Shown: piece by piece, positions 2,157-33,938 of the stretch
Numbering within the stretch: the stretch's first letter is position 1
Layout of the letters: each line of letters starts with the position of its first letter
DNA from: Acetobacteraceae bacterium
GTDB lineage: Bacteria > Pseudomonadota > Alphaproteobacteria > Acetobacterales > Acetobacteraceae
Direction: 5' to 3'
DNA length: 40,988 nt
Assembly: GCA_027483995.1 (NCBI GenBank)
Contig: JAIXTK010000329.1
Location: 1 to 40,988, forward strand
Made by a program: the position numbers and the translations under genes
Notes under the pieces: generated by a model
The model's input: only the letters and a program-made list of their open reading frames with translations
The model's database searches: none
What the model was told of the DNA's origin: nothing

Positions 2157-2196
2157 AAAAGTCTTTTTGCTTCTTTTTCTTCAGAAAAAGAAGATT
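2157..2196 (-). repeat. Type-A AT-rich 3'-end hairpin element (downstream of phaR)
   Basis: + strand AAAAGTCTTTTTGCTTCTTTTTCTTCAGAAAAAGAAGATT; identical over 40 nt to 21364-21403. Confidence 0.95.
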
Positions 2197-4334: not shown

Positions 4335-5507
4335 ATGGACGACATCGTCATCGTCTCGGCCGCGCGTACGCCGGTTGGGAGCTTCAACGGGGCCTTCGGC
4401 AGCGTGCCGGCGCATGTGCTGGGCACGGCGGCGTTGCAGGCGGCGCTTTCGCGCGCCGGGCTGGAGCCGGGCGAGGTGGACGAGGTGATCCTGGGCCAGG
4501 TGCTGACGGCGAACCAGGGGCAGAACCCGGCGCGCCAGGCGGCGCGGGCGGCGGGGATTGCGGACACGGCGACGGCGTTCGGGATCAACCAGGTGTGCGG
4601 CTCTGGCCTGCGCGCCGTGGCGCTGGCCGCACAGCAGGTGCGCACCGGCGAGAGCGCGATCGTGGTGGCCGGCGGGCAGGAGAGCATGAGCCAGAGCCAG
4701 CACGGCACCTATCTGCGCGCGGGCGCCAAGATGGGCGACATGCAGCTGGTGGATACGATGATCAAGGACGGGCTGTGGGGTGCCTTCTTTGGCTACCACA
4801 TGGGCAACACGGCCGAGAACGTGGCCCGCGCCTACCAGATCACCCGCGAGGAGCAGGACGAGTTCGCGCTGGGCAGCCAGCAGAAGGCCTCCGCCGCGCA
4901 GAAGGCCGGGCGGTTCAAGGACGAGATCGCGGCGGTGACGGTGAAGGGCCGGCGCGGCGATACCGTGGTGGAGAACGACGAATACATCCGCCACGATTCC
5001 AGCATCGAGGGCATGGCCAAGCTGCGGCCGGCTTTCACCAAGGACGGCACCGTGACCGCCGGCAATGCCAGCGGGATCAATGACGGCGCCTCGGCGTTGG
5101 TGGTGATGTCGGGCGCGGAAGCCGCGCGCCGGGGGCTGACGCCGCTGGCGCGGATCGCCAGCTTCGCCACCGCGGGCGTGGACCCTTCCGTGATGGGCAC
5201 GGGGCCGATCCCTTCGAGCCGCAAGGCGTTGCAGCGGGCGGGTTGGGGCATTGGCGACCTTGACCTGATCGAGGCGAACGAGGCCTTCGCGGCGCAGGCC
5301 TGCGCGGTGAACAAGGACATGGGCTGGGATACCAGCCGCGTGAACGTGAACGGCGGGGCGATTGCGATCGGGCATCCGATCGGGGCTTCCGGTGCGCGCG
5401 TGCTGGTGACGCTGCTGCACGAGATGCAGAAGCGGGACGCCAAGAAGGGCCTGGCGACGCTGTGCATCGGCGGCGGGATGGGCGTGGCGATGTGCCTGGA
5501 GAGGTAA
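4335..5507 (+). CDS. phaA: Acetyl-CoA C-acetyltransferase (thiolase)
   Basis: [37 protein letters not shown] active site; [43 protein letters not shown]. Confidence 0.95.
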
Positions 5508-5510
5508 GAG

Positions 5511-5552
5511 TCTTCTTTTTTCTGAAGAAAAAAGAAGCAAAAAAGACTTTTT
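5511..5552 (+). repeat. Type-A AT-rich 3'-end hairpin element (downstream of phaA)
   Basis: TCTTCTTTTTTCTGAAGAAAAAAGAAGCAAAAAAGACTTTTT; reverse orientation of the 2157 copy with 1-nt length changes in homopolymers. Confidence 0.93.
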
Positions 5553-5568
5553 CCGTTTGATACGAAAG

Positions 5569-5600
5569 CGCCGTGGCCAGGTTGGCCACGGCGGTTTTGT
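5569..5600 (+). terminator. Intrinsic terminator downstream of phaA
   Basis: CGCCGTGGCCA-ggt-TGGCCACGGCG followed by gttttgttt. Confidence 0.85.
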
Positions 5601-5611
5601 TTGCAAAATCA

Positions 5612-5650
5612 GAAAAGTTTTTTGGTTCTTTTTTTCAAAAAAGAACCGCT
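5612..5650 (-). repeat. Type-B AT-rich 3'-end hairpin element (downstream of aapP)
   Basis: Minus strand AAGCGGTTCTTTTTTGAAAAAAAGAACCAAAAAACTTTT; identical over 39 nt to 21281-21319. Confidence 0.95.
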
Positions 5651-21280: not shown

Positions 21281-21319
21281 AAGCGGTTCTTTTTTGAAAA
21301 AAAGAACCAAAAAACTTTT
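21281..21319 (+). repeat. Type-B AT-rich 3'-end hairpin element (downstream of mipA-like gene)
   Basis: AAGCGGTTCTTTTTTGAAAAAAAGAACCAAAAAACTTTT. Confidence 0.95.
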
Positions 21320-21363
21320 GTGACTTGAGACGGGAAGACCGGGTCCCTCCGCCTCAAACGAAT

Positions 21364-21403
21364 AAAAGTCTTTTTGCTTCTTTTTCTTCAGAAAAAGAAG
21401 ATT
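21364..21403 (-). repeat. Type-A AT-rich 3'-end hairpin element (downstream of Wza-like gene)
   Basis: + strand AAAAGTCTTTTTGCTTCTTTTTCTTCAGAAAAAGAAGATT; identical to 2157-2196. Confidence 0.95.
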
Positions 21404-29577: not shown

Positions 29578-29840
29578 CAAGGCCTGCAGGCCGGTGTGTC
29601 GGCTTTTTTTACACAGGAATTGTGGGTTGCCGGCGTCAATCCGGTCGCATCGGACCGCGGGGCGCTAATTTATCTAATAATTTCATATGCTTGAAGGAGT
29701 TCGACCACTCCGGGGTGGCCTGTATGATCCATTCGCAAGGGGGCAATGGCCCCGGATGGGAGTCGGCAATCTTTACATTCTCGCTGTGAACGATTGGCTG
29801 CCCCTGGTTTAAGTGTTTGTTTTCAGGGGAGAAAAAATCC

Positions 29841-33842: not shown

Positions 33843-33938
33843 TGGCGGAGGAGAGCGGGAGTCGAACCCACCCAGGACTGCTTGGCGGCCCCAACCGGCT
33901 TTGAAGGCCGGCCGACCCACCGGGGCCGATTCTCCTCC
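33843..33938 (-). tRNA. selC: tRNA-Sec (anticodon UCA at 33902-33904), CCA encoded
   Basis: Minus strand GGAGGAGA-ATCGGCCCCGGTGGGTCGG-CCGGCCTTCAAAGCCGG-TTGGGGCCGCCAAGCAGTCCTGG-GTGGGTTCGACTCCCGC-TCTCCTCC-GCCA; 8-bp acceptor stem, long variable arm, strong similarity to E. coli selC. Confidence 0.95.

Follow-up and report, generated by a model that had tools for sequence, protein, structure and literature searches.

A gene-end-associated repeat of paired A/T-rich arms in Acetobacteraceae and its possible role at mRNA 3′ ends

The window, meaning the whole 40,988-nucleotide stretch of DNA analysed here, comes from an Acetobacteraceae MAG and carries A/T-rich hairpin arms of two types, A and B, at three sites where genes end. 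Pfam identifies the neighbours of these elements as phaR, an alpha/beta hydrolase, the phaA thiolase, an ABC ATPase, a MipA-family protein and a Poly_export/SLBB (Wza-like) protein. The features at the three sites are as follows.

2158..2193, minus strand: solo type A arm behind phaR; stem CTTCTTTTTC/GAAAAAGAAG, loop TGAA, linker C, purine tract AAAAAGA, then CTT
5505..5511, plus strand: phaA stop codon TAA and short purine spacer (NAAG-type flank) before the arm
5512..5549, plus strand: type A arm behind the phaA stop codon, long variant; upper stem 7, tract AAAAAAGA
5550..5612, no strand: central GC-rich inverted repeat of the phaA unit; RNA fold z = -6.9
5613..5647, minus strand: type B arm out of the convergent ABC-transporter gene; stem GGTTCTTTTT/AAAAAGAACC, tract AAAAAA
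21275..21284, plus strand: NAAG-type purine flank between the MipA-family stop codon and arm B
21285..21319, plus strand: type B arm behind the stop codon of the MipA-family gene
21320..21363, no strand: central inverted repeat of the MipA/Wza unit; RNA fold z = -5.2
21364..21400, minus strand: type A arm out of the Wza-like gene

An earlier note on this DNA had described three dispersed copies of a 40-nt type A element, at 2157-2196, 5511-5552(+) and 21364-21403, next to phaR (PF07879), the phaA thiolase and a Wza-like Poly_export protein, and the copies and their neighbours are all confirmed. The first and third 40-nt stretches are identical, with exact core copies at 2169-2194(-) and 21376-21401(-) where shuffles lead one to expect 0, and the second has one additional base in each of the T-run, both A-runs and the final T-run. 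Every type A arm in the window lies 3′ of the stop codon of its gene and in the direction of that gene; behind the arm hairpin there is no U-tract, and the canonical U-tract terminator is absent from the arms, as the note had also observed. However, the view of a single 40-nt element has to be given up, as the usual unit is a facing pair of arms. At two of the three window sites type A faces, around a variable inverted repeat and ~110 nt away, a sister arm of type B that had been missed (5624-5647(-) and 21285-21308(+)). The phaA/ABC transporter and MipA/Wza sites are thus single two-armed units between convergent genes, in which each arm reads out of its own gene, and the phaR copy is the sole solo arm of the three.

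When up to two mismatches are allowed, the type A core is matched 197 times on the forward and 184 times on the reverse strand of the window's genome, and most of these places count on both strands because the arm is nearly palindromic; a direction-specific pattern covering all arm types finds 245 + 240 places (~485 arms), and its reversed control finds 0. At least one arm is present in 49 of 150 sampled Acetobacteraceae genomes, with up to 869 arms each, and carriers include Roseomonas, Pseudoroseomonas, Rhodovarius and Gluconacetobacter, as well as Neokomagataea with two copies. Cultured carriers are Roseomonas sp. GC11, in which a narrower pattern finds ~200 arms, and Gluconacetobacter liquefaciens. 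A narrower pattern had no match in 24 sampled genomes outside the family, nor did the element match in the phages searched, and among the plasmids searched it matched only two Pseudoroseomonas records, where it is unannotated. An apparent strand bias along the chromosome of one genome (G112) was rejected as a listing artefact. The element corresponds to no known Rfam family, with weak sub-threshold matches only, the open-access papers searched contain no description of it, and the passages searched in two Gluconobacter RNA-seq papers (PMC5756330, PMC6191907) do not report the motif.

Pairing of unlike arms is the rule in this family. Type A faces type B in 30 of the 32 facing pairs found in 369 kb of the window's genome, and 697 kb of the congeneric genome G006 hold 22 pairs (18 A+B, 4 B+C); with all material taken together, heterotypic pairs make up 167 of 183, and in further genera 12 of 15. 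The stems of the arms, type B (GGTTCTTTTTTGAAAAAAAGAACCAAAAAACTTTT) included, are A/T-rich with a TGNA loop in a genome of 69% GC. In the lower stem, which varies, a change on one side is matched on the other (CTTC, GTTC, TTTC, CTCC, GTCGC, GTCCC and others), the loop-closing pair is C-G, T-A or G-C, and stems are perfect in 627 arms and contain one mispair in 31. Full units are predicted to fold as RNA into three adjacent hairpins (z = -6.9 for the phaA unit and -5.2 for the MipA/Wza unit), and in the lower stem of the phaA central repeat the purine tracts of the two arms, A and B, pair with each other. The central inverted repeats of G000 (e.g. L068 4648, L074 5725, L064 3639) fall into recurrent classes, GATGCGGAGAGG.., GCACGCGTGCC.. 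and GCGCCGG.., which suggests mosaic exchange of the middle part.

The most regular property of the arms concerns length. If the upper stem is defined as the base pairs that separate the lower-stem C from the TGNA loop, then in 554/560 arms the purine tract behind the linker C exceeds it by exactly one base: 11/11 with a stem of 4, 204/204 with 5, 324/329 with 6 and 15/15 with 7. These 560 arms share descent and are not independent events, but the rule holds across ~nine combinations of closing pair and stem length. It also holds in 47/51 arms from later-fetched loci of further genera, including 3/3 in a state newly counted there (closing G, upper stem 7, tract A8). The single-base homopolymer differences pointed out in the earlier note are therefore real, but they are not incidental, as they belong to this strict rule. 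The tract ends in GA almost exclusively where the closing pair is C-G. Antiparallel pairing between the purine tract and the T-run was considered as the cause and rejected, as it suits the types with closing C and T and fails for the G type. A new kind of gene-end element in which the purine tract packs along the upper stem, making a third strand, would explain two things: the one-base excess of the tract over upper stems of 4 to 7 bp, and the base at its matching position, which is G almost only with a closing C-G, and otherwise A; we nevertheless consider such a fold rather improbable.

The arms are tied to gene ends. In three congeneric genomes (G000, G006, G003) they adjoin stop codons on their own strand, mostly at 4-18 nt, and read out of the gene. 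The nearest upstream gene is on the same strand for 47/59 scored arms in G006 and 51/76 in G000, mostly 4-18 nt away by a home-made, self-trained gene caller; in other genera the distance from stop codon to arm reaches ~60 nt and the placement rule is looser. Elements occupy 49/198 convergent, 75/892 tandem and 4/199 divergent junctions, an enrichment of convergent over divergent (Fisher p ~2e-12) that exists even though divergent regions comprise more intergenic DNA (40 vs 24 kb). Clearly, the copies are neither limited to three nor randomly oriented, and with ~485 arms, convergent-junction enrichment and same-strand stop codons upstream, the gene-oriented 3′-end family proposed in the earlier note extends across the genome. 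Not one of 136 arms in G000 and G006 lies inside a gene, and a DNA uptake sequence was rejected on this ground; those of Neisseria and Haemophilus that double as terminators are similar in being identical short words in inverted pairs behind genes, but the unit here is longer and structured and has no copies within genes.

Stop codons beside arms are TAA in 77/129 cases vs 127/1184 elsewhere in G000, G006 and G003, where TGA dominates the genome; this bias is not seen in further genera, and because the flanking NAAG repeats can supply the TAA, it may be either a cause or a consequence. Elements also stand behind two of ~67 tRNA genes examined. These two cases point to the 3′ ends of transcripts and weaken the idea of a stop-codon-specific element whose role is purely translational. 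Another dispersed repeat, CGTCATTGCGAGCGAAGCGAAGCAATCC in form, occurs near some elements (L063 ~16300, L079 ~12080) and behind a tRNA-Lys gene (L325).

The placement of the paired arms recalls intrinsic bidirectional terminators, which share with the element a dyad between convergent gene ends and a T-rich strand beyond the central hairpin. According to this explanation the unit contains a long central hairpin with A-tract/T-tract pairing of both arms at its base, and in either direction the far arm follows with its T-rich strand (CTTCTTTTT or TTCTTTTTTT), which would act as the U-tract. The geometry fits, as ~9-10 T-rich bases follow the stem base in either direction, and the enrichment between convergent genes fits as well, as does the phaA site of G003, where the element is absent and a canonical terminator (GC hairpin + T8) stands in its place. 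A GC-rich hairpin with a direct U-tract is not found in single arms; full units have a T-rich strand after the central hairpin. However, solo copies are proximal arms without that strand, the opposite of what this explanation requires. Known terminators also lack near-identical sequence at hundreds of sites, the extra hairpin before the main stem and the A-tract behind that first hairpin. Our scan seldom scored element ends as canonical, and where genes stand in tandem the next start codon is in many cases just 10-35 nt from the end of the element, which leaves little room for a promoter, argues against a complete terminator and makes a strong-terminator role doubtful. We judge this explanation unlikely.

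Comparison of orthologous sites separates the arms from everything around them. At the small number of five such sites the arms diverge by 1.5%, the centre by 37%, third codon positions by 18.4% and second codon positions by 2.4%. The centre of the phaA unit differs strongly in sequence between orthologues and its hairpin still folds, and the long arm variant at this site is retained in five congeneric species, evidence against gene conversion as a simple means of homogenisation. The solo phaR arm is unchanged in G006 though its flanks differ, and is absent in G003; the Wza-side arm (21364..21400) has base changes in G006, its element is missing in G008, and in G001 there is an IS-like interruption. 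More generally, occupancy differs between more distant congeners, with some near-empty sites. Units thus come and go, and those present appear to be held by constraint. The mobility suggested in the earlier note is half borne out, as presence varies between congeneric species but the copies present are kept by constraint and do not decay, and its two further suggestions, sequence upkeep and a non-canonical form, are both supported. Arms that stay nearly unchanged while the surrounding DNA drifts probably have some function at gene ends.

By layout the element is nearest to the REP/BIME/REPIN repeats of E. coli and Pseudomonas (PMC3116915, PMC3733652), with which it shares hundreds of short extragenic palindromes, mostly in inverted doublets (here 183 facing pairs) that combine two arm types around a variable spacer, and a suggested involvement in attenuation and in the formation or protection of mRNA 3′ ends. 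Some of the E. coli REPs also sit near stop codons, no more than 15 nt off (PMC12306157). However, REP stems are GC-rich, whereas these are A/T-rich with a TGNA loop in a 69% GC genome, the purine tract follows the stem in length, and the arms are constrained at orthologous sites. The GTAG/CGTC tag is absent from the hairpin foot of the listed arms, whose flank is an NAAG-type purine sequence, and CGTC repeats are reported to be missing in Acetobacteraceae (PMC3733652). A cognate RAYT is lacking too: among nine congeneric genomes a RAYT-type Y1 transposase (PF01797) occurs in three, as one weak copy each, and is absent from six, among them G003, although its number of copies is higher than in G000 and G006. 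Since the tag and RAYT tests failed, we do not file the element with REPINs. ERIC/MITE-type repeats are likewise imperfect palindromes of ~100-150 bp in intergenic DNA, but here the ends are conserved, the middle is variable, orientation is tied to gene ends, no recognised transposase is known from the search for the Y1 type, and no target duplication is apparent at the few near-empty sites. The element is outside the known families of such repeats.

These comparisons bear on the possibility of a selfish REPIN-type miniature mobile element, tolerated only behind genes and without host function. Its doublet layout, high copy number, patchy distribution (49/150 genomes), presence or absence between congeneric species and near-empty sites would all be expected, and copies in G028 have in common a ~170-nt internal module, a sign of dispersal. 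Yet orthologous copies do not decay, and even second codon positions change more than the arms do; five species retain one length variant specific to its site, six of nine congeneric genomes have no RAYT, and no target duplication is apparent at the few near-empty sites. We therefore regard a purely selfish element as very unlikely.

Constraint could also act on DNA. E. coli BIMEs bind gyrase, IHF and HU, and the arms might similarly be bound by a sequence-specific protein (gyrase, nucleoid or repair) where transcription makes supercoils. This would agree with the enrichment between convergent genes, with A- and T-runs fixed in sequence beyond pairing alone, and with the single mispairs in arm stems, where G-U is not preferred over A-C (9 vs 9; 17 vs 17), giving no sign that a gene-strand RNA hairpin is selected. 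However, solo arms almost always point out of the gene a few bases from the stop codon, neither of which a supercoiling site needs, and fixed protein contacts hardly explain the length rule, so we consider a DNA-level site improbable.

From placement, folding and constraint we infer instead, with somewhat less than even confidence, that the element is a family-specific, dispersed gene-3′-end module that protects mRNA 3′ ends from trimming or weakens readthrough there, and that spreads by a RAYT-independent route. The unit would consist of two A/T-rich arms in an inverted doublet, in most cases an A/C-type arm with a B-type one, and of the variable GC-rich hairpin between them, situated directly behind stop codons and occasionally behind tRNA genes. 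Once transcribed it would, as predicted, form three neighbouring hairpins, of which the first, together with the stable central hairpin, would block 3′-to-5′ trimming and attenuate readthrough of transcripts ending beyond the gene; between convergent genes this would work in both directions. Counting against such a barrier, the T-runs and loop are conserved beyond the needs of a plain barrier hairpin, and the solo phaR arm with its flank folds no better than shuffles (z = -1.2). If the proposal is true, a single bacterial family would, in many of its genomes, flag the ends of genes with a spreading A/T-rich structure that hardly varies and has no relation to RAYT-driven REPs. This would provide a clean natural system for studying how repeats become host-maintained 3′-end signals, and the elements would be relevant to expression tools in acetic acid bacteria and Roseomonas. 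The length rule makes sharp predictions for mutagenesis.

Two further features of the window deserve mention. A further AT-rich stretch in this GC-rich DNA, at 29659-29838, is apparently unrelated to the arms. A tRNA-Sec gene lies at 33847-33938 (-) (Rfam RF01852, 77.5 bits), and the organism may therefore make selenoproteins.
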